A stretch of DNA of 64,000 nucleotides from Alphaproteobacteria bacterium (GTDB lineage Bacteria; Pseudomonadota; Alphaproteobacteria; Micropepsales; Micropepsaceae), in contig WGMH01000003.1 of assembly GCA_016125165.1 (NCBI GenBank), positions 186,001-250,000 on the forward strand, in the 5' to 3' direction. A program made the position numbers and the translations under genes. Shown here in pieces: positions 5,218-24,138 of this stretch; position 1 is the stretch's first letter, and every line of letters starts with the position of its first letter. The notes beneath the pieces were generated by a model, which did no database searches, was not told the DNA's origin, and worked only from the letters and a program-made list of their open reading frames with translations.

Positions 5218-7022
5218 TGCCCGTTCAGCTCAAGCCCCTTGAGACTACCCTCCGCACGCCAGTCTTCGAGCACTTTCACAAAGGCGATGGGCCCCGCGCC
5301 ATAGGGGCCGTTCTGCGAGGCGCGTTCGGAAGGCTTGCCTTCATTGTTGTAGTAGCCCGGCGTGCACTCTTCGAGGAATCGCTGACGCATCACCGCGAGC
5401 GAGATGATGGTCTGCACCCATTCCTTCTCCGCCTGCTCCGATGCTTCCACCGTGCGGACCTGACGGTTCGCGCATTCACGGATGATATAGGACAGGTGCT
5501 TGCTCTGCTCATTGAGCATATGCGGATAGTTTGCGGTAAAGCCGGCTTGCGCATTGCTCATGATGAACACATTCGGAAAGCCCCGCGCATGCATGCCGTG
5601 CAGCGTCTCCACGCCATCGTCCCACTTCTGGGTGAGTGAGTTTCCGCCCTTGCCATAGAGCTCATAGCCTGAGCGGCGCGTGTAGCTGGTGCCGACTTCA
5701 AAACCCGTGGCGTAAATCAGGCAGTCGATTTCATATTCCTTGCCGTTGGCCACAATACCGTGCTCGGTGATGCGCTCCACACCCTGCCCGCCCGTATCGA
5801 CCAGCGTGACGTTCGGACGGTTGAAGGTCTGCAGATATTCATCGTGGAAACAGGGACGCTTGCAGAACTGGTTGTAATACGGCTTCAGCGCTTCTGCCGT
5901 ATTTGCGTCCGCAATGATCGAATCCACGCGCGCCCGGATCTGTTCCATCTTCTTGTAGTCGGCGAGCTGCATCAGCTCCATCGGGTTCCTGGCTTCGCCG
6001 CCAGCTTCCTGCTGTTTGCGCGCCAGAAACAGGATATTGCCGATGATGTCTGTCCAGCCGTCATTGACGAGGTCCTCCTCCTGGAAGCCTCCGGAAACCA
6101 GAACATTGAAATTGTCCATGCGCTTCTGCTGCCAGCCGGGCTCGAGGCTGCGCACCCACTGCGGATCGGTGGGACGGTTGTTGCGCACATCGATGGACGA
6201 CGGCGTGCGCTGGAACACGTAAAGCTCCTTTGCCCACTGGCCCAGATGCGGCACGCATTGCACAGCGGTAGCGCCGGTACCGATGATGCCAATGCGCTTG
6301 TCTTTTAACTTGGTAAGGCCGCCATTGGAATCGCCGCCGGTGTAGTCGTAATCCCATCGGCTGGTGTGGAACGAATGTCCCTTGAAACTATCCACCCCTT
6401 CGATACCGGGCAGCTTGGGCCGATGAAGCGGTCCGTTTGCCATCACCACGAAGCGCGCCTTCATGGCATCGCCGCGGTTGGTTTTCACGGTCCAGCGCGA
6501 GGTGGCTTCATCCCAGCGCATCTCCGTCACTTCGGTCTGGAAGCAGGCGTTGCGATAGAGATCGAAATGTTCGCCAATCGCGCGCGAATGTTGAAGAATT
6601 TCCGGTGCGCGCGAGTACTTTTCGACCGGCATGTAGCCAATCTCTTCGAGCAAGGGCAGATACACGTAGGACTCGATATCGCAGGCCGCGCCTGGATAGC
6701 GGTTCCAGTACCAGGTGCCGCCGAAGTCTCCGCCCTTCTCAATGATGCGAATGTCGTCAATGCCTGCTTCGCGCAGCCGCGCGCCCGCGAGCAGGCCGCC
6801 GAAACCGCCACCCACAACCACGACTTCCACTTCATCGGTGAGCGGCGCTCGTGCGAAGCCCGGCTTTACATAGGGATCTTCGAGATAGTGGGCAAACTGG
6901 CCCTTCATCTCGCGATATTGTTCGTTTCCCTGCTCGCGCAAACGCTTGTCGCGCTCGGCGCGGTATTTCGCGCGCAAAGCATCCGGATTGAAGCCGAGTT
7001 CGGCGGTATCGGACAGGCCCAT
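5214..7022 (-). CDS. flavin-containing Baeyer-Villiger-type monooxygenase
   Basis: The product is predicted to be an FAD- and NADPH-dependent oxygenase inserting oxygen into ketones. The 602-residue protein has a Rossmann FAD site (GGGFGG, 71-76), the [11 protein letters not shown] block (101-111), the type I BVMO fingerprint [11 protein letters not shown] (213-223, matching FxGxxxHxxxW) and a second nucleotide site (GTGATAV, 248-254). An N-terminal extension of about 60 residues ([17 protein letters not shown]) is typical of the cyclohexanone/steroid-monooxygenase-like subgroup. Substrate is not predictable. It is a single gene, separated by 95 bp from the ABC exporter. Confidence 0.92.
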
Positions 7023-7117
7023 GGTACGCTTCCCGAATAGTTGTCCGGGATATTATGCGGGAGCCGAATTGCGCGCGCGAGTGGAAATTTGCGGGGACCG
7101 GTCAAGCCGCCGTTGCG

Positions 7118-7894
7118 TCAAGTCTTGAGACGATACCCTGTCTTGAAGATCCAGATCACGATACCGAGGCAAAGTACAAAGAAGCCCAGCGTTGCGCCGA
7201 GGCTGAACCCGATGCCGACATCCGACGTTCCGTAGAAGCTCCAACGGAATCCGCTGATGAGATAGACAACCGGGTTGAACAGCGTGACGGTGCGCCAGCC
7301 CGGCGGCAGCATGGAAATGGAATAGAAGGCTCCACCAAGAAACGTGAGCGGCGTCACCACCAGCATTGGGATGATCTGTATCTGCTCGAAACTGTTGGCG
7401 AGCACGCCAATAATGAAGCCAAAAAGGCTGAAAGTGGCGGCCACCAGAATGAGCAACGCGACCATCGCAAAAGGGTGCTCGACACGAATGGGCACAAAGA
7501 ACGAGGCCACCAGCAGAATCACCAGACCCAGTACCACCGATTTCGTGGCCGCCGCACCAACATAGGCCAGCACTGTTTCCATTGCGGACACCGGCGCGGA
7601 CAGAAGTTCATAGATCGTGCCGGTAAATTTGGGGAAATAGATACCGAATGAGGCATTGAAAATGCTCTCGGTGAACAGCGACAGCATGATTAACCCAGGC
7701 ACGATGAACGCACCATAGGAAACCCCGTCCACGCTGGTCATGCGCGAGCCGATGGCTGCGCCGAAAACCACGAAATAGAGTGACGTGGTAATGGCGGGTG
7801 TCGCAAGGCTCTGCCAGATCGTGCGCAGGGCACGCGATATTTCGAAGCGATAGATGGCCCAGACAGCGTGGCGGTTGAAAGCGGGCGCGCTCAT
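7118..7894 (-). CDS. ABC-2 type transporter permease
   Basis: This 258-residue integral membrane subunit belongs to an ABC-2 exporter of the YadH/NodJ type, with about six membrane segments. The ABC-2 signature region around [19 protein letters not shown] lies in the first half and the segment [19 protein letters not shown] in the second. Its ATG overlaps the stop codon of the ATPase gene by four bases, so the two are translationally coupled. The exported substrate cannot be told; small hydrophobic molecules or polysaccharides are typical for the family. Confidence 0.92.
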
Positions 7895-8829
7895 GACTGC
7901 CCCCTCTGCCCGCTGACGAGGCTGACGAAAATATCTTCCAGAGAGCTTTGCTGCGTGTTCAAGTCACGATAGCCGATGCCAAGTTCCAACAGGCGGCGCA
8001 ACAGCGCCGGAATGCCAGTGTTCTCCGAGTTGGAATCGAAACTGTACTCAAGCTCCAGACCATCCGCTTTCAATGCCAGATTCCAATCGGCCAGCTCGGG
8101 CGGAACCGCTTCCATTCTCTCCTGCAACTGAAGCGTGAGCCGCTTCTTGCCCAGCTTTTTCATCAAGGCGGCTTTCTCTTCCACGAGGATCAGCTCACCC
8201 TTGTTGATGACACCGATGCGGTCGGCCATCTCCTCGGCTTCGTCGATATAGTGGGTGGTAAGAATGATGGTCACGCCGCTCTGGCGCAATGCGCGCACGA
8301 GATTCCACATGTCGCGGCGCAATTCCACGTCCACACCAGCAGTCGGCTCATCAAGAAACAGGATACGCGGCTCATGACTGAGCGCCTTGGCGATCATGAC
8401 ACGACGCTTCATGCCGCCTGACAGCGTGTTGATCGTGTCCTTGCGCTTTTCCCAGAGCGAAAGGTCTTTGAGTATCTTCTCGACATAGGCCGGATCAGGT
8501 GCGCGCGCGAAGAGGCCACGGCTGAAATTCACCGTGGCCCACACCGTTTCCCACATATCGGTGTGCAGTTCCTGCGGAACCAGACCGATCTTCATGCGTG
8601 CATCGCGATAGTCGCTCAGGACATCGTGACCATCGGCAGTGATGGCGCCGCTGGACGGCGTCACGATCCCGCAGACGATGGAAATGAGCGTCGTCTTGCC
8701 GGCCCCATTGGGGCCCAGCAGGGCGAAGATCTCGCCGCGGTTGATTTCAAGGTCGATACGCTTCAGGGCCTGATGGCCCGAAGCATAGGTCTTCGTCAGA
8801 CCGGATATCGAGACGATGGGTTCGGGCAT
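7891..8829 (-). CDS. ABC exporter ATP-binding protein
   Basis: This is the ATPase of the ABC-2 exporter. The 312-residue form starting at ATG 8829 ([15 protein letters not shown]) is chosen; a 60-residue longer reading would run into the GST gene. Walker A is GPNGAGKT (39-46), Q-loop Gln86, signature LSGGM (136-140), Walker B ILFLDEP (from 156) and a switch histidine in [10 protein letters not shown]. The C-terminal 90 residues are the YadG-like extension. It is coupled by ATGA to the permease. Confidence 0.94.
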
Positions 8830-8849
8830 GAGTGGTCTGGATTGCCGAT

Positions 8850-9497
8850 TCAGCGGGGCACCATATGAAGGTATGGCTCGGCTTCCTTCAATGTGCGGGC
8901 GATTGATGGGCGGGCCTTCAACCGTTCCAGATATTTCTGTGCATTTGGAAATCGTCCTTCCATAGGCACGCGGAAATCGGCGTAATAGAGCGCCGGAAGC
9001 GCCGCACAATCCGCCATGGTGAAGGCATCGCCCATGGCCCAGGTCTTGCCGGCCAAGTCTTCTTCCACCATGCGGTAGGCGGTTTCGATGGCGCGACGCG
9101 CGTCTGCCACGCCCATGGGGTCATGCATGCCTTCGGGCCGCATCTTGTCAGCCGTGATCTTCTGCATCGGCAACTGCAAATAGAGATCATAGAAGCGGTC
9201 GCGCATGCGCATCTGCCGGGCGGCATCGGGATCGGACGGGATGAATTTCGTCGCTCCGGGATAATGCTGATCCAGATACTCGATGATGATGCTGGATTCC
9301 GGAATGATCCGATCATCCCTGTCGTCACGCAGAACCGGGAATTTGCCAATCGGCCACATCTCATAGAAGGCATTGCGCTCACCTTCGTCCATCAGGTTCA
9401 CGATGTGCGGCACGAAGGCCGTGCCGTTCTCGTAAAGCGCGATCTCCGCCTTCCAGCAGAATGACGACAGCGGATGATAATAGAGATGGAGGCTCAA
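8850..9497 (-). CDS. glutathione S-transferase family protein
   Basis: The 215 residues contain an N-terminal thioredoxin-like domain ([21 protein letters not shown]; the cis-proline lies in GKFPVLRD and the SNAIL-type ESSIIIEYL follows) and an all-helical C-terminal domain. It probably conjugates glutathione to electrophiles in the cytoplasm. Its ATG overlaps the stop of the upstream YceI gene by four bases, and the ABC ATPase follows 20 bp later, so a YceI-GST-ABC exporter transcript is possible. Confidence 0.88.
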
Positions 9498-10180
9498 CGT
9501 TTTTTCTCCTTCGGAGCCGCGGGCTTGTGCCAGGCAGGGCCGGTGAATTCCGTTTCGATGGCGATATCCACCCGGTCGCCCACACCCATACTGGTACCCG
9601 GCGGAGGCAGGCCATTGGTCATACCAAATTCAGAACGCTTGATGAATCCAGATGCGGAAAAGCCGGCGCGCGCATGCGGATCCATTTCGAAACCGGCCCA
9701 GCCACCATTGAAGACGGCATGTAGAACGACTGGCTTGGTCACGCCATGGAGCGTGAGGTTGCCGGTGATGTCGGCCGTGTTGGGCGCGGTCATCACGACG
9801 CGGGTGGAAACAAATTTCATTGTCGGGAATTTGTCGGCCTCAAAGAACTCCCTGCCCAGCACCTGTTCCAGGAAACCGGTAGGCGGTGTGTTCAGCACAA
9901 GCGAGCGAACATCTACCGTGGCCGTGATTTTGGAGGCGGAAGGCTCCTTGGGGTGGAGCTTAAGCGTCGCATCGAAATTGCTGAAATGCGCGGTGTAATT
10001 GGAAAATCCAATGTGGTTCACCTTGAAGGTGATGCTGGCGTGCGCCTTGTCGAGAGTATAGGCGCCAGCAGGCACTTCGGTCTTCACCGGCACAATATTC
10101 GCGGCGCTGTGCGCATGGGGCAGATCGCCAAGAACCGCCAGGCTCGCACCCAACAAAAAGCCCTTGAATGCGGGTTTCAT
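9494..10180 (-). CDS. YceI-family periplasmic protein
   Basis: YceI proteins are periplasmic lipocalin-like barrels binding long isoprenoid or lipid ligands. The 228-residue precursor has a signal peptide (MKPAFKGFLLGASLAVLG, with a cleavage region around AHSAA). The barrel carries the family landmarks YTLDKAHASITFKVNHIGFS, EFFEADKFPTMKFVST and GNLTLHGVTKPV, and a charged [10 protein letters not shown] tail. A VOC/PhnB-like gene ends 9 bp upstream and GST overlaps downstream, so this is the middle of a small stress-type cluster. Confidence 0.93.
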   Translation of the reverse strand: MKPAFKGFLLGASLAVLGDLPHAHSAANIVPVKTEVPAGAYTLDKAHASITFKVNHIGFSNYTAHFSNFDATLKLHPKEPSASKITATVDVRSLVLNTPPTGFLEQVLGREFFEADKFPTMKFVSTRVVMTAPNTADITGNLTLHGVTKPVVLHAVFNGGWAGFEMDPHARAGFSASGFIKRSEFGMTNGLPPPGTSMGVGDRVDIAIETEFTGPAWHKPAAPKEKKR

Positions 10181-10189
10181 GGCGTGGAC

Positions 10190-10597
10190 CTATTGCGCCG
10201 GAAAATTGATCATCCACGGAATGCCGAAGCGATCCGTGACCATGCCAAACCGCTTGGAAAAGAAAGTTTCGGCCATCGGCATGCGCACATCGCCACCTTC
10301 GCTCAGAGCCTTGAAGGCGCTTTCCGCCTGCTCCACCGAGGCGGCAATGAAAGAAACGGAGAATCCTTGCGGCTTGGTGTAACCGCCTTGCTGTCCATCC
10401 GATCCCATCAGTGCGGTGTCGCCAATTGTCATGGCGGCATGCATGATCTTGCCGCGCCAGCTCTCGGGAACCGAGGACGTTCCCGGTTCCATCGCGAACG
10501 GCAGCATCATATCGATCCTGCCACCCAACGCCTTTTCATAAAGTCTGAAGGCTTCCTCGCAGGTGCCATCGAAATTCAGGTAGGGATTTACGGGCAT
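10190..10597 (-). CDS. PhnB/glyoxalase-fold (VOC) protein
   Basis: This 135-residue member of the PhnB-like 3-demethylubiquinone methyltransferase/glyoxalase superfamily has the typical opening NPYLNFDGTCEEAFRLYEKA, then HAAMTIGDTALMGSD, and the closing WRGKI/RFGIPWMINFP elements. Family members are small dimeric proteins, mostly without an assigned reaction. The gene lies between a small membrane protein and yceI on the same strand. Confidence 0.9.
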   Translation of the reverse strand: MPVNPYLNFDGTCEEAFRLYEKALGGRIDMMLPFAMEPGTSSVPESWRGKIMHAAMTIGDTALMGSDGQQGGYTKPQGFSVSFIAASVEQAESAFKALSEGGDVRMPMAETFFSKRFGMVTDRFGIPWMINFPAQ

Positions 10598-10615
10598 GGT
10601 GTGTCTCCTTTTGCA

Positions 10616-11026
10616 CTAACGCGCGGGGGCGAGTTTTGCGCCAAGCCAGCAGCTTGGCAGAGCAAGAACGGCCAGCAGGATCGGGTACCAGTGATGCCCG
10701 ATGTTCCACATCGCCACCGCGCCAAGCGCACCCAGCAGCGTGCCGACAATCCCCAGTATCACGCCATGCAGCATAGATTTGGCAGGAGCGAGACGTGCCG
10801 TGACAAATCCCGCGAAGACGGTGATGGCTGTCCTGTAGCAAAGCGCAATGAACAACTGGGTGTCGGGCGGGTCGGCGCTGGCCATCTGGGGAAGGACCGT
10901 GGCTTCGAGAACCGCATCAGTCCCGACCGACAAAGCCACCACGATTGCAAGACCTGCCAGCACCGCAAGGATTGAACGCGGTATCGACGCCTGATCGCCC
11001 TGCTCTTTCGCCTCGTCTACAACCAT
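10616..11026 (-). CDS. small four-helix membrane protein
   Basis: I do not recognise a named family. The 136 residues begin with a hydrophilic acidic stretch (MVVDEAKEQGDQ) followed by four hydrophobic segments: about 19-40, 57-78, 86-107 and 112-130. The second helix region carries CYRTAITVFAGFVTARLAP, a pattern common in small alphaproteobacterial membrane proteins. It is divergent from the MarR gene and upstream of the VOC gene, so it may be under that MarR regulator (inference). Confidence 0.75.
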   Translation of the reverse strand: MVVDEAKEQGDQASIPRSILAVLAGLAIVVALSVGTDAVLEATVLPQMASADPPDTQLFIALCYRTAITVFAGFVTARLAPAKSMLHGVILGIVGTLLGALGAVAMWNIGHHWYPILLAVLALPSCWLGAKLAPAR

Positions 11027-11050
11027 CCCACGCGCTTTCTTGACTATTTC

Positions 11051-11062
11051 GTTGATATCAAC
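11051..11062. promoter_or_regulatory. 12-bp perfect palindrome, candidate MarR operator
   Basis: GTTGATATCAAC is a perfect 12-bp palindrome in the 48-bp gap between the membrane-protein gene (left) and the marR-type gene (right), ending 12 bp before the latter's ATG. MarR proteins typically bind short perfect palindromes in exactly such divergent gaps. Binding by this protein is inferred. Confidence 0.5.
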
Positions 11063-11074
11063 ATTATTGCCGGT

Positions 11075-11524
11075 ATGTCAAAGCCCGAAGCGCCGTCCGT
11101 GGCATTCGCCCATCACGTTCGCGAGACGTGCCTGTGTCTTGGCACGCAGCGCGCGGCACGTGCGCTCGCGCGCATCTTTGACGATGCGCTGCGCCCCGTT
11201 GGTATCACCAGCGGACAATTCTCTCTGCTGATGACGATGGCGCGCTCGGAGCCGCAAACCTATGCGAACGTCTCCAGCATTCTGGGCATGGACCGGACCA
11301 CACTGACCGCCAATCTGAAGCCGCTTGAGCGGCGGGGCCTGGTGAAGATCATCGTGGACAGGAAGGATAAACGCGCCCGCCTTCTGACGCTCACCTCCGA
11401 AGGGCGAGCCGTTCTGGCGAAAGCCGCGCCCATCTGGAAGAAAACACATGCAATGGTGGAAACGCGCGTAACGCACGCCTCTCCTGATGCGCTGCGCGCC
11501 GATCTGGATGCCCTCTGCGCCTGA
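11075..11524 (+). CDS. MarR-family transcriptional regulator
   Basis: This 149-residue winged-helix regulator carries the MarR core: LARIFDDALRPVGITSGQFSLL (dimerisation/helix 1-2), the recognition region NVSSILGMDRTTLTANLKPLERRGLV, and the wing with DKRARLLTLTSEGRAVL. MarR proteins repress neighbouring genes and release DNA on binding phenolic or oxidising ligands. The gene is divergent from the membrane-protein/VOC/YceI/GST run, which makes that run a candidate target. The ATG at 11075 follows the 12-bp palindrome. Confidence 0.9.
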   Translation: MSKPEAPSVAFAHHVRETCLCLGTQRAARALARIFDDALRPVGITSGQFSLLMTMARSEPQTYANVSSILGMDRTTLTANLKPLERRGLVKIIVDRKDKRARLLTLTSEGRAVLAKAAPIWKKTHAMVETRVTHASPDALRADLDALCA

Positions 11525-11542
11525 TCCTATAGCAACTGATCC

Positions 11543-12055
11543 CTACGCCTTGCGGATTTCGCCCAGATAGGCTTCGAGCTTGTCGAATGTGCCCTTGAAA
11601 CCCTGCTGCATCGAAGGATGCATGGCCTTGAAGCGGGCACGTTCGGCAGGCGTCGCGTCCACGGGCTTTCCACGCGATGTGATCGTCGTGCGCCCATTCG
11701 TCTCGCTGAAACTGACGTGATTCAGAATCTTCAGCGGCCAGTCATTGGAGATGGCCGCAAACGGCGCGCGCGCGATGTTGCCCTGCGCATCGGAGAAGGA
11801 ATTGGTGAACACCATCAGTTCCGGCGCCTTGATCTCGAGATAGTCGAAGCGGCCCCACATCTCATCGCCGTTCGGTGCGCGCATGCCGTAGTGGAAGTGG
11901 CCACCCGGCCTGAAATCGAGCGTGCAGGAAATCCAGTCGAAGCCCGCCGGACCCCACCATTTGGCCAGATGTTCGGCCTTCGAATAGACCTCCCAAACCA
12001 AGTCGCGTGGTGTATCGACGGTGCGGTTGACGATGAATTCGAGATCCTCTGACAT
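11543..12055 (-). CDS. SRPBCC (AHSA1-like) domain protein, copy 2 of the ArsR operon
   Basis: The 170-residue SRPBCC/START-like protein is of the activator-of-Hsp90-ATPase-homologue type, and the hydrophobic cavity fold may bind a lipidic ligand. Landmarks are RTVDTPRDLVWEVYSKAEHL, KWWGPAGFDW and FRPGGHFHYGM. It lies 3 bp after the stop of a paralogous SRPBCC gene in an ArsR-led operon. The biochemical role of such pairs is unknown. Confidence 0.9.
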   Translation of the reverse strand: MSEDLEFIVNRTVDTPRDLVWEVYSKAEHLAKWWGPAGFDWISCTLDFRPGGHFHYGMRAPNGDEMWGRFDYLEIKAPELMVFTNSFSDAQGNIARAPFAAISNDWPLKILNHVSFSETNGRTTITSRGKPVDATPAERARFKAMHPSMQQGFKGTFDKLEAYLGEIRKA

Positions 12056-12058
12056 GGA

Positions 12059-12541
12059 TCAGCCTTTCTTCCTTGCAAGTTGAGCGACATAGGCGGCCAG
12101 GCGCGCGACGGTCTGCTGTCCACCTTCCACCGCACCCTTTTCGCGGGCAACGCGCTCGCGCTCTTGGGCAGTGGCGAACACGCCGCGCATGGTGAGTTGC
12201 GTTTTTCCGCCCGTGTCCTCCAACGTGATGGTGTTGTGAAAACGGATTTCCGGGTTGTCTTTTCCGTCATCGTGCCAGATGGCAATGCGTTCGGGAGGCA
12301 CGATCTCTTCGAACTGCACGCGATTTTCATAATCGCGGCCATCGGGACCGTGCATCACGAAGCGCCACACGCCACCGGGCCGAAACTCAAAGCGTGACGT
12401 CGTGGTGGTGAAGCCATCCGGCCCCCACCACTGCGACAAATGCTTGGGATCGGTGAAGGCCTCGAACACCAGATCGCGCGGCGCATCGATCAGCCGCGTC
12501 GTCACGATCGAGCGGGCATCCAGTTCAGTTGCGTCTGCCAC
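12059..12541 (-). CDS. SRPBCC (AHSA1-like) domain protein, copy 1 of the ArsR operon
   Basis: The 160-residue paralogue of the next gene has the same layout: TRLIDAPRDLVFEAFTDPKHL, QWWGPDGFT, FRPGGVWRFVMHGPDG and an AHSA1-type C-terminus. Its first codons overlap the end of the arsR-type gene by 17 bp, so translation is coupled. ArsR-SRPBCC pairs are a common conserved module in Proteobacteria; the two tandem copies here probably arose by duplication. Confidence 0.9.
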   Translation of the reverse strand: MADATELDARSIVTTRLIDAPRDLVFEAFTDPKHLSQWWGPDGFTTTTSRFEFRPGGVWRFVMHGPDGRDYENRVQFEEIVPPERIAIWHDDGKDNPEIRFHNTITLEDTGGKTQLTMRGVFATAQERERVAREKGAVEGGQQTVARLAAYVAQLARKKG

Positions 12542-12884
12542 GTCTCTTCCCCTTCGACTTTTTGGCCTGCAGCACCTTCAGATAGTCTTCGAGGCGGTCG
12601 AGGCGCTCTTCCCAAAGCTCGCGGTATGCCTCGAGCCAGCCATCCACGGGCTTCAGCGCCTTGGGTTCGAGTTTGCAGGGCCGCCACTGCGCCTCCCGCC
12701 CGCGCGAGATCAGCCCCGCGCGCTCCAGAACCTTCAGGTGTTTCGAAACTGCCGGAAGGCTCATGTCGAAGGGCGCGGCAAGTTCCTGCACGGAGGTCTC
12801 GCCCAGCACCAGCCGCGCCAGGATCGCCCTGCGCGTAGGATCCGCGAGCGCGGCAAAGGTTTGGCTGAGGTGGTCCGGCGGCAC
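12525..12884 (-). CDS. ArsR-family transcriptional regulator (metal-site-free type)
   Basis: The 119-residue winged-helix repressor contains FAALADPTRRAILARLVLGE, then VQELAAPFDMSLPAVSKHLKVLERAGLI (recognition helix) and the wing RGREAQWRPCKLEPKAL. There are no ELCV-type metal cysteines, as usual for ArsR proteins leading SRPBCC operons. Translation starts at a GTG (12884). Just upstream lies an AT-rich inverted-repeat region suited to autoregulation. It is the first gene of the ArsR-AHSA1-AHSA1 operon. Confidence 0.92.
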   Translation of the reverse strand: MPPDHLSQTFAALADPTRRAILARLVLGETSVQELAAPFDMSLPAVSKHLKVLERAGLISRGREAQWRPCKLEPKALKPVDGWLEAYRELWEERLDRLEDYLKVLQAKKSKGKRRGRRN

Positions 12885-20410: not shown

Positions 20411-21436
20411 TTACTTTACACCGGCAATCTGCTTCCAGCTTGCCTCGATGGCCGTCACCGCGTTGTCGGGCAGCGGCACATAGCCCAGCGCGGCCGCCAT
20501 TTCATCGCCGTTGGCGTACGACCATCTGAAGAACTGCAGAGCAAGCGATGATGCGCCGGTATCGCGTGGGCGCCGGTTCATCAGGATGTATGTCGTTGCC
20601 GTTATCGGCCAGGACGCGTCGCCCGGCTGGTCAACAAGCAGGACATAGAACTGCTTTGTCGACGCCTTCGCCCAATCCGCGCCGGATGCCGCGGACTTGA
20701 AAGTTGCGGCGCTCGCCGTGACAGCCTTGCCTGCGCGATTGTAGAGGCGCACGCAGTTCAGCTTGTTCTGCTCCGCATAGGCGAACTCAACATAGCCGAT
20801 GGAGCCCGCTGTCTTTGACACATAGCTGGCAATCCCTTCATTGCCTTTCGCGCCCAGCCCCACAGGCCATTCCACCGCCGTGCTGGCGCCAATTTCGTCA
20901 TGCCAGAACTTGCTTTTCTGCGCGAGGAAGGATGTGAAAACAAATGTTGTGCCCGAACCATCAGAGCGATGGACGACGGCAATCGCCTGATGTGGCAGCT
21001 TCATGCCACGATTCAGCGCAGCGATACGCTGATCGTCCCAGCGCGATATCTTTCCGGCAAAAATGTCGGCAAGGACGGCGCCGTTCAGCACAAGCCTGTT
21101 ATTGCCAACGCCGGCCAGGTTGATGACCGGCACGATTCCACCAATGACGGTCGGGAATTGCACGAGATTGGATTTTCCGAGATCTGCCGGCAGTAGCGGC
21201 ATGTCCGAAGCGCCAAACGTCACAGTGCCCGCTTTGATCTGCGCAATACCACCACCCGAACCGATGGATTGATAGTTCAGGTTGTTGCCTGTCTTGGCTT
21301 GGAAGCCAGACGCCCACTTCGCATAGACGGGATAAGGAAAGGACGCACCTGCGCCCGAGATGGTGCCCGCCGTGGCGGCACTGGCAACAAGAAAGCATGC
21401 CGCGAGGATAGCGGCCGCACGATGGAAAACATTCAT
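20411..21436 (-). CDS. pstS: phosphate ABC transporter substrate-binding protein PstS, copy 1
   Basis: This is a periplasmic phosphate-binding protein. The 341-residue precursor starts at ATG 21436 after GGAGAG and has a signal peptide ending near TAG. Binding-loop motifs are [39 protein letters not shown] and [16 protein letters not shown]. It lies downstream of a second pstS behind a strong terminator. No PstC, PstA or PstB gene is in the window, so the transporter partner must lie elsewhere. Confidence 0.93.
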   Translation of the reverse strand: MNVFHRAAAILAACFLVASAATAGTISGAGASFPYPVYAKWASGFQAKTGNNLNYQSIGSGGGIAQIKAGTVTFGASDMPLLPADLGKSNLVQFPTVIGGIVPVINLAGVGNNRLVLNGAVLADIFAGKISRWDDQRIAALNRGMKLPHQAIAVVHRSDGSGTTFVFTSFLAQKSKFWHDEIGASTAVEWPVGLGAKGNEGIASYVSKTAGSIGYVEFAYAEQNKLNCVRLYNRAGKAVTASAATFKSAASGADWAKASTKQFYVLLVDQPGDASWPITATTYILMNRRPRDTGASSLALQFFRWSYANGDEMAAALGYVPLPDNAVTAIEASWKQIAGVK

Positions 21437-21613: not shown

Positions 21614-22648
21614 TTACATTCCGGAACCGGAAATGCCCTTCCAGGAGGCTTCGATCTGCTTGACGACGTTTTCCGGCATCGGGATGTAGTCCAGATCCAG
21701 AGCCATCTTGTCGCCCTTCTCGAAACACCACTTGAAGAACTTCAGCGCGTCGGCGCTGGCGGCGGCATTCGCCGGGTTCTTGTACATGAGGATGAAGGTG
21801 GCGACGGTCATCGGCCAGCTGGTGTCACCCGGCTGGTTGGCGAGGATCACGCCGTAGCCCGGCTGGCTGTTCCAGTCGGCATTGGCGGCTGCAGCGGCGA
21901 AGGCTTCAGACGTCGGAGAGACGACCTTGCCGGCCTTGTTCTTCATCTTGGTGTAGGCAAGCTTGTTCTGCGTGGCATAGGCGTATTCGACATAGCCGAT
22001 CGAACCGATCGTCTGGCCGACGTTACCGGCTACGCCTTCATTGCCCTTCGCGCCAACGCCGACTGGCCATTCAACCGACTTTTCAACGCCAACGTTCTTC
22101 TTCCACTCGGCCGAAACGTCCGAGAGGTAGTAGGTAAAGTTGTAGGTCGTGCCGGAACCGTCCGAGCGGTGAACAACGAGGATCGCCATGTTCGGAAGCT
22201 TCACGCCGGCGTTCAGCGCGGCAATCTTCGGGTCATTCCACTTTGTGATCTTGCCCATGTAGATGTCGGCAATCGTGTTGCCATCGAGCGTGAGCTGGCC
22301 CGGCTTGATGCCCGGCAGGTTCACGACAGGCACGATGCCGCCCATCACCATCGGCCACTGCAGAAGGCCGATGCTGGAGAGATCGGAACCGGAGAGCGGC
22401 GCGTCGGACGCACCGAACGTCACGGTCTTCGCCTTGATCTGGGCAATACCGCCGCCCGAACCAATGGACTGATAGTTGAGGCCCGTGCCCGTGGCGGCCT
22501 TATAGGCAGCGGCCCACTTGGAATAGACAGGATAGGGGAACGTCGCGCCCGCGCCGGTGATATCGGCGGCAAACGCGCTCGTGCTGATCGCGACAGCGGC
22601 CGCAAAGCCGATCACGCCAGCAAAGAGTGCGGAGAGGGGTTTCTTCAT
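21614..22648 (-). CDS. pstS: phosphate ABC transporter substrate-binding protein PstS, copy 2
   Basis: This periplasmic phosphate-binding protein has 344 residues from ATG 22648 (AAGGAAGA ribosome site), with a signal peptide [20 protein letters not shown] cleaved near AFA. The phosphate-site motifs are [36 protein letters not shown] and [18 protein letters not shown]. It is clearly paralogous to copy 1 over the whole length. It lies directly downstream of the porin gene and probably shares its Pho-box promoter. Confidence 0.94.
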
Positions 22649-22753: not shown

Positions 22754-23986
22754 TTACCAGCGAAGCTGACCGAAAATGCCAACTTCGTCGTAGCTGCCGC
22801 CGACAACCGCGCCACCGATGGTGCCGTTCGAAGTCGCAAGCGTGCCGTGATCAGCTTCGTCGTGCTTGTACACGAGCGAGAGATCGACGATCTTCGTCGG
22901 GCTCCACTGAACACCGACGTTGAAGTACTTGTCCTTCAGCGGGCTGTTGGTGTCCTGGTTCGGTTGGACCCAATCGTAACGGCCAAAGACCGACCACTGC
23001 GGATCGAACTGGTAAGATGCGAAGCCGCTCCAGCCCTGAGCCTTGTCGCTGGCGATGGTGGTCACGTTGTTCCAGTCGCTACCGTAGAAGTATTCGACAC
23101 CAAGCGTGATCGTCTTGGTCTTGTAGGCGGCAAGCGCGTCGAAACGCGTAGCGGTGTGATGCGTGACCGCGCCCTGCACGTCCTTGCCAAGCTTTCCGGT
23201 GTACCCCCCGACAGCGAGCACGAAGTCATCGACCTTTGCGCTCAGGCGGCCCTCAACGTCCACAGACTTGAAATGCGTGGCATTGTTGGAGCCCGGAGGC
23301 GCCTTGTAACCAGCACCATTGATGACTGCGACGGCGTATTCGAACATGCCGCCGAACTTGCCCGAGGCGTGCACGCCCCAGTCCGCAGAGGTACCGAACT
23401 TGGTACGGTCGATCAGCGTATTTTCAATGTGGCGGTAGCCATAGACGCCTTCAGCAAACGGCACCCACGGCAGATCGGTCGAACCCAGGCGCACATCGAG
23501 AGCCGGCGAGATGTTCGCGCGCAGATAGGCCTTCTTGATGTAAAGCTGCGTGACCTTCGCGGTGCTGTCGTACTGGAAGTCAGTCGTCAGGTTTGCGGAC
23601 CACACGTCGTCGAACTTGTGATCGACGCCGAAATAGAAGCGCTTGATATCGAAACCGATACCGTTATCCGTGCCCTTCACGCCGTTCACGTCATGATCGA
23701 CATTCGTGATGTCGAAATACATACGGCCGCTGATCGAGGTGTTGCTCCACCAGCCATCCAGCTTGGACGCAGCAGACGCATAGGCGTCGCGGTCTTTCGC
23801 CTGACGGATTTCTGCGTTCTGCAGTTCGGCTTCGAGCGCCTCGATGCGCGCTTCGAGATCTGCATTGCTCGGACCGGCCTGCTGTTCGGACCACTTTGGG
23901 TCATTCGAACCGGCTTGCGCAGCCGCAGACGAGAACACCAATGCAACGACGGCGGCGCTGGCCAGCCATGCTGCTTTCCCCTTCAT
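22754..23986 (-). CDS. OprP/OprO-like phosphate-selective porin
   Basis: This is an outer-membrane barrel of the phosphate-selective porin O/P family, 410 residues from ATG 23986 behind GGAGG. A signal peptide (ASAAVVALVFSSAAAQAG) is followed by a short coiled-coil segment rich in EARIEALEAELQNAE, typical of trimeric members. The barrel has alternating aromatic strands (FYFGVDHKFDDVWSANLTTD) and ends in terminal aromatic GQLRW. The Pho box 124-152 bp upstream and pstS downstream support a phosphate-starvation role; related porins can also pass other anions. Confidence 0.9.
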   Translation of the reverse strand: MKGKAAWLASAAVVALVFSSAAAQAGSNDPKWSEQQAGPSNADLEARIEALEAELQNAEIRQAKDRDAYASAASKLDGWWSNTSISGRMYFDITNVDHDVNGVKGTDNGIGFDIKRFYFGVDHKFDDVWSANLTTDFQYDSTAKVTQLYIKKAYLRANISPALDVRLGSTDLPWVPFAEGVYGYRHIENTLIDRTKFGTSADWGVHASGKFGGMFEYAVAVINGAGYKAPPGSNNATHFKSVDVEGRLSAKVDDFVLAVGGYTGKLGKDVQGAVTHHTATRFDALAAYKTKTITLGVEYFYGSDWNNVTTIASDKAQGWSGFASYQFDPQWSVFGRYDWVQPNQDTNSPLKDKYFNVGVQWSPTKIVDLSLVYKHDEADHGTLATSNGTIGGAVVGGSYDEVGIFGQLRW

Positions 23987-24109
23987 TACTACCTCCAAAT
24001 ACTGGAAGAGGCGCCGATTTCGAGGTTATCCAACCGCCCAATGCCGTTGGCGCTAACCCAGGGAGCCCCCTTTGCGGGCGCAGCAATGCAGCCCGGCTGT
24101 AACGCCTGC

Positions 24110-24138
24110 GTGACTGTTCTTTGACGGTTCAGTGACAG
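24110..24138 (-). promoter_or_regulatory. Pho box with three direct repeats (PhoB-binding site)
   Basis: Reading on the minus strand there are three heptamers at exact 11-bp intervals: CTGTCAC (24138-24132), CCGTCAA (24127-24121) and CAGTCAC (24116-24110), separated by TGAA and AGAA. This fits the alphaproteobacterial PhoB consensus of CTGTCAT-like direct repeats. It lies upstream of the porin-pstS pair and points towards it. Confidence 0.85.

Follow-up and report, generated by a model that had tools for sequence, protein, structure and literature searches.

In Escherichia coli, direct heptamer repeats spaced at 11 bp lie upstream of pstS, and to our knowledge the pstSCAB-phoU operon of this bacterium contains no porin gene. 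The porins OprP and OprO of Pseudomonas aeruginosa are phosphate-induced. In Caulobacter crescentus, according to the excerpted text of PMC11208175, pstS is encoded apart from pstCAB-phoUB, and both are activated by PhoB; the word 'porin' does not occur in the text of that paper. In Xanthomonas citri, according to the excerpt of PMC5439949, the pstSCAB-phoU operon does not include the gene of a second binding protein, PhoX, and the two phosphate-binding proteins of the pair, XAC1577 and XAC1578 by their consecutive locus tags, are both upregulated at phosphate starvation. A narrow literature search, covering titles and the beginnings of abstracts, brought up no account of a porin–pstS operon that has a Pho box and is separate from pstCAB, and the excerpt of PMC4046663 does not describe a porin–pstS operon with a Pho box.

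Gene order, PstS proteins and intergenic hairpins

We analysed a stretch of 64,000 nucleotides (the window; G000:C8:186001-250000) of an assembly of 3.04 Mb in 14 contigs (95.6% complete). On the minus strand of the window, genes for a porin of 410 amino acids (22754-23986) and for two periplasmic phosphate-binding proteins, pstS1 (21614-22648) and pstS2 (20411-21436), follow one another in this order, with a Pho box upstream of the porin. The box (24138-24110, CTGTCAC-tgaa-CCGTCAA-agaa-CAGTCAC) consists of three heptamers whose starts are exactly 11 bp apart, and 123 bp separate it from the porin start. The initial annotation had described such a box aimed at a porin and then at pstS, in a locus devoid of inner-membrane transporter genes, and was right on both counts: no pstC, pstA or pstB lies beside porin–pstS1–pstS2 or among the flanking genes, and none of the matches of the genome to the pstC profile falls inside the window. 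Our analysis adds a weaker fourth repeat, pstS2, and strong hairpins behind both the porin gene and pstS1. We rejected the idea that pstCAB once stood between pstS and the HIBADH gene of this locus and was lost, as L033, by its translated ORFs, and several other relatives, by their gene lists, hold other genes there (MarR- and EmrAB-like, named by eye).

PstS1 and PstS2 score 420.3 and 375.8 bits against the NF008171 cut-off of 339, and the closest PDB chains of PstS1 are PstS proteins. These are the only two PstS above the cut-off in the assembly. A recent tandem duplication of pstS is not supported, since the two proteins are 56% identical and stand apart in the tree, where PstS2 sits on a long branch and its placement is unsure.

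Just past the porin stop codon lies a hairpin of 13 pairs with a T-rich tail (22744-22716, minus strand; z -5.18), and a terminator-like hairpin of 12 pairs (21555-21528, minus strand; z -3.98 for the 101-nt stretch) separates pstS1 from pstS2. The porin–pstS gap was strongly folded in all ten short-porin loci examined, at -22 to -62 kcal/mol (energies computed without shuffles). In 14 long-porin loci (L102 and L099 excluded), the gaps measure 20-64 nt; energies of -15 or lower were obtained for four of them (L046, L047, L106 and L114), and the other ten fold weakly, again without shuffles. The two hairpins of the window probably make transcript levels differ between the three genes, and partial termination or 3'-end protection may be what sets porin and PstS levels apart. 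It is also possible that the terminator-like hairpins instead cut pstS1 and pstS2 off the porin transcript.

The Pho box and its conservation

Scored against three copies of the plain consensus CTGTCAT, the box matches at 16 of 21 positions, the best value in the window, and the score of 16 recurred once when 20 windows were generated with a first-order Markov model. The plain consensus by itself would make the box marginal; it is conservation that makes it a convincing candidate. With a matrix built from the porin boxes of 25 relatives only, no site in the window outscored the box, which reached 20.97 bits (12.44 for the runner-up that does not overlap it), where the expectation at 20 bits, under independent bases, is 0.013 per window. 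The background scan for this matrix kept L085, L088 and L089, duplicates of L033, L034 and L117.

Conservation was assessed in 29 porin loci, this one and 28 congeneric ones, by fitting a single heptamer matrix, applied at three successive positions 11 bp apart, to the porin-sense strand only, within the 300 bases before the porin start (placed by open reading frame or by alignment). These loci are a biased sample, as 14 of them (among L100-L118) were fetched because of their pstS; the porin of L102 is split over two frames, and L045 and L099, which are cut by contig ends, were excluded. As many as 26 of the 29 upstream regions contain a clear box, so that direct CTGTCAT-like repeats 11 bp apart are conserved ahead of orthologous genes, and 19 of the 26 possess a fourth repeat. 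The summed score was 610, compared with 206±47 (maximum 260) in 50 first-order Markov resamplings, which were fitted for 12 rounds against 30 for the real set. The reverse-complement control, with a total of 544, was uninformative, because the fit re-learns the same sites backwards. The box is absent from the 300 bases upstream of the porin in L036, L037 and L041. Pho-box-like sites were seen before genes near these box-less short porins (L036:8735-8763, L037:4972-4944 and L041:2637-2609); the gene behind the site in L036 encodes a DUF4118-HisKA sensor kinase, and in L037 a Mutator-type transposase gene lies between.

The weaker fourth heptamer of the window, GCGTTAC (24105-24099, minus strand), stands in the same 11-bp register and has a score of its own of 4.93. 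Across the 26 loci this +33 offset, which lay outside the fit, had a mean heptamer score of 2.39 (above 2 in 19 loci), as opposed to -14.71 at the control offset +44 and -13.41 at -11. Because the +33 offset scores far above both controls, we take the array to be composed of three strong repeats and one weak repeat. A CTGc.At-like block is common to the relatives after the fourth repeat (consensus over 26 loci), and its counterpart here, TGCATTG (24090-24084, minus strand), may be a -10 region; a sigma-70 scan found no promoter-like site.

Two other models behaved differently. R1, a mixed model of 52 boxes (27 from pstC and 25 from porin loci), did not report the porin box at E ≤10, in either the genome or the window; the uniform pstC type carries most weight in the model, and its genome search scored 150 of 742 first-look candidates. 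Its genome matches were the box before this genome's own pstC (E 9.1e-5, from a model that includes the pstC boxes of relatives), a site on contig C10 (E 0.06) and one at E 2.1. The C10 site (G000:C10:7385-7412, L132) is a weak Pho-box-like site between two divergent ORFs. With a matrix pooled from pstC heptamers, overlapping plus-strand registers outranked the minus-strand box, and the strand is ambiguous there because the set mixes GTCAC-, CTTTGC- and GTGAT-type heptamers.

If the heptamers were a chance match and the operon lay outside PhoB control, the marginal plain-consensus score, the silence of the mixed model and the lack of a PhoB over the cut-off in the assembly would all be accounted for. 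We nevertheless regard this as extremely improbable, given that position and register are kept across the genus, the unfitted fourth repeat included, and that the box tops the window with the matrix trained on relatives. Taken as a PhoB site, the array would be bound by phosphorylated PhoB at its three strong heptamers and the weak one upon phosphate starvation, and the operon would be switched on.

The regulator genes themselves gave no match over the cut-off for PhoB in this assembly (the best match to a relative's PhoB is 43% identical) and none for PhoU, which was found in 57 of the 60 genus genomes. In six relatives (L119-L124) phoU and a PhoR-like gene are clustered apart from pstCAB, and at least two of these clusters (L119 and L122) also contain phoB; in L119 PhoB passes its cut-off and PhoR falls short of it, at 306.5 versus 334.2 bits. 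Genes resembling gcrA and argD (names given by eye) lie near this phoR–phoU cluster. The argD ortholog was also missed in the present assembly, where the best match has 40% identity, as against 68-92% among four relatives. Since a neighbour of the cluster in relatives is missing along with it, the lack of PhoU and PhoB probably reflects an assembly gap, and we rejected their loss as a biological trait as a first reading. A Pho box was seen at the phoR–phoU junction in all six of these relatives.

Location of pstCAB and the probable partner of the PstS proteins

The transporter genes pstC, pstA and pstB form a cluster on contig C2, with matches above the cut-offs of TIGR02138, TIGR00974 and TIGR00972, and the genome therefore holds the three partners of a PstS; one pstC match in the assembly is over the cut-off. 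A box of a design like that of the porin, CTGTCACACAAGCTTCATAAAACTGTGAT (L031 9437-9409), has its end 44 bases upstream of the first start codon in the pstC reading frame. With pstCAB placed on C2 behind a Pho box of its own, transporter and porin–pstS unit must be transcribed separately, as the initial annotation had proposed. The search for pstCAB-phoU that the initial annotation had suggested thus succeeded for pstCAB and its box, and not for PhoU. Among 30 pstC loci, 28 have a box before pstC or before pstS–pstC, a count that is descriptive and no independent test, the template having been read from the same loci. In L057 and L068 pstS comes before pstC, and the box stands in front of this pstS, about 1.2 kb upstream; the two loci below the threshold are L078 and L075, the latter with no more than 87 bases of upstream sequence. 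The porin–pstS unit and pstCAB are probably co-regulated.

In the 60 genus genomes, this one included, pstC was present in 60 (59 over the cut-off) and pstS in 55 (53 over the cut-off). Distances between the two were compared by hand, and fragmented assemblies may hide some neighbours: in 43 of the 53 genomes with pstS over the cut-off, this one among them, pstC has no pstS closer than 5 kb, in eight (G002, G003, G004, G019, G022, G023, G033 and G061) it is directly beside pstC, and in two (G064 and G074) it is about 3 kb away. The split pst is the usual state of the genus and no peculiarity of this locus. Porin and pstS are neighbours in 25 of the 29 porin loci, pstS being absent beside the porin in L034, L042, L043 and L044, and in three of the four genomes with such a lone porin pstS adjoins pstC. 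In 20 further pstS loci with upstream DNA, a porin is directly upstream in 15, and 14 of these porins are of a longer kind of some 515-600 residues (truncated in L099 and split in L102). The other five are L103, L104, L105, L107 and L108. The porin-less pstS of L103, L104, L105 (G015) and L108 (G029) encode an N-terminal GAGGTA in place of GAGATF, a motif that is also found in some porin-linked PstS.

Outside the genus, 14 relatives of the porin came out of a pattern-based scan that covered 84,980 species with one genome each, and the stretches fetched around them contain pstS in eight cases, with pstC too in six, and neither gene in the other six. In L086 the order is porin–pstS–pstC–pstA, with a box matching at 17 of 21 positions 55-75 bases before the possible porin starts. 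In L091, from a Caulobacteraceae MAG (5671-12565), porin–pstS–pstC–pstA–pstB run in one direction and are followed by PhoU- and PhoB-like genes (identified by eye). In L090 (Pseudoxanthomonas), L096 (Dyella), L094 and L097, pstSCAB is divergent from the porin or next to it, which with L091 makes five distant loci where the porin adjoins pstSCAB genes. An association of the porin with pst is thus frequent, and what the window holds may be the half that stayed with pstS.

The initial annotation had taken the locus for a dedicated capture unit in its own right. An outer-membrane and periplasmic unit that captures phosphate for storage or signalling and works apart from PstCAB would suit genes that are encoded and controlled apart from pstCAB, the several PstS copies of some congeners, and the precedent of the X. 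citri PhoX outside the pstSCAB-phoU operon (as given in the excerpt of PMC5439949). We consider it very unlikely all the same, as 10 of the 53 genus genomes have pstS no more than about 3 kb from pstC, other lineages have the porin beside pst genes, and the assembly's one PstCAB has no other PstS: because PstS1 and PstS2 are the only PstS found in the assembly, and there is one pstCAB, they most likely serve PstCAB.

Our preferred reading, which we hold with high confidence, is that porin, pstS1 and pstS2 form a Pho-regulon operon, induced by phosphate starvation, whose PstS proteins serve the PstCAB encoded elsewhere. The porin would pass phosphate (or small anions) across the outer membrane, and the PstS proteins would bind phosphate in the periplasm and hand it over to PstCAB, encoded on another contig behind its own Pho box. 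A porin and a phosphate-binding protein can, then, stay one Pho-box unit while the permease sits elsewhere, and the absence of pstCAB nearby should not be read as the mark of a functional unit of its own. More generally, it is conceivable, if rather unlikely, that oxyanion importers in this lineage consist of two parts under separate control, an envelope module that comprises a porin and a periplasmic binding protein, and a permease module; the phosphate genes fit this scheme, and in this genome those for molybdate seem to do so too. A promoter of its own and intercistronic hairpins could then allow the envelope module to be adjusted independently of the pump.

The porin and comparison with known systems

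The porin matches PF07396 at 26.6 bits (cut-off 20.9), the match covering only profile positions 4-92 of 370, the N-terminal part. By eye it is likely to have a signal peptide. A profile of 20 porin relatives matched no PDB chain at E ≤1. An AlphaFold2 model (mean pLDDT 79.4) has sixteen main strands and a long N-terminal helix (residues 41-75). Fold comparison returned porins at Z 22-26 among the 50 matches listed; the best of these, chitoporin, PorB and the anion-selective Omp32, reached Z of about 26, with OprP at 25.0 and OprO at 24.9. The modelled fold ties with many trimeric porins and fits a phosphate porin and a general porin alike. Of the term 'OprP-like', used in the initial annotation, the PF07396 match and the predicted 16-strand barrel hold up, whereas the profile match is partial and the Z of OprP is not above that of other porins. 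The long porins of L046, L112 and L118, the three that were scanned, match PF07396 over nearly the whole profile. Elsewhere in this genome, a long porin that matches PF07396 comes immediately after modA (L032:4263-6649, G000:C8:47262-49648), with modB–modC on another contig (L005:380-2154, G000:C11); by eye there is no modBC beside that modA and no modA beside that modBC, a split like that of pstS and pstCAB.

What points to phosphate selectivity is the genetic linkage of the porin. A general porin, or one for other anions, that is phosphate-induced without being selective for phosphate and is paired with the usual PstS is a real possibility, though not the one that we favour: the partial PF07396 match, the lack of a PDB sequence match at E ≤1 and the tie of the fold with PorB, Omp32 and chitoporin at Z of about 26 (OprP 25.0) are all in keeping with it, and the recurrent linkage to pstS and to a Pho box speaks against it, linkage being in itself no proof of selectivity. 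Such a porin is compatible with the regulatory part of our preferred reading, a starvation-induced Pho-regulon operon.

Set against E. coli pstSCAB-phoU, the locus shares the PstS family and the 11-bp heptamer repeats, and differs in that binding protein and permease, placed in one operon in the excerpted E. coli literature, are split here. The likeness to OprP and OprO lies in the PF07396 match above the cut-off and in the barrel fold, the difference in a match to the N-terminal profile part only and in the lack of a PDB sequence match. In the loci of the Caulobacteraceae MAG, Xanthomonadales and other MAGs (L086 and L090-L098), the porin is 40-61% identical to ours and stands beside pstS in 6 of 10; unlike here, those six loci have pstC and pstA close by, and five of them pstB. 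A porin with pst in other lineages, porin–pstS here and a lone porin in four loci make this a tractable case of operon break-up with persisting regulatory sites. As in C. crescentus, pstS is encoded apart from pstCAB, but the excerpt of PMC11208175 has phoU and phoB after pstCAB, and here neither follows it. The presence of two phosphate-binding proteins recalls PstS and PhoX of X. citri, where, in the excerpt of PMC5439949, pstS stays in pstSCAB-phoU and the pair is 70% identical, compared with 56% here. A split pst and a second binding protein were, in short, already known, and the Pho-box porin–pstS unit is a mostly ordinary arrangement, common to many relatives.
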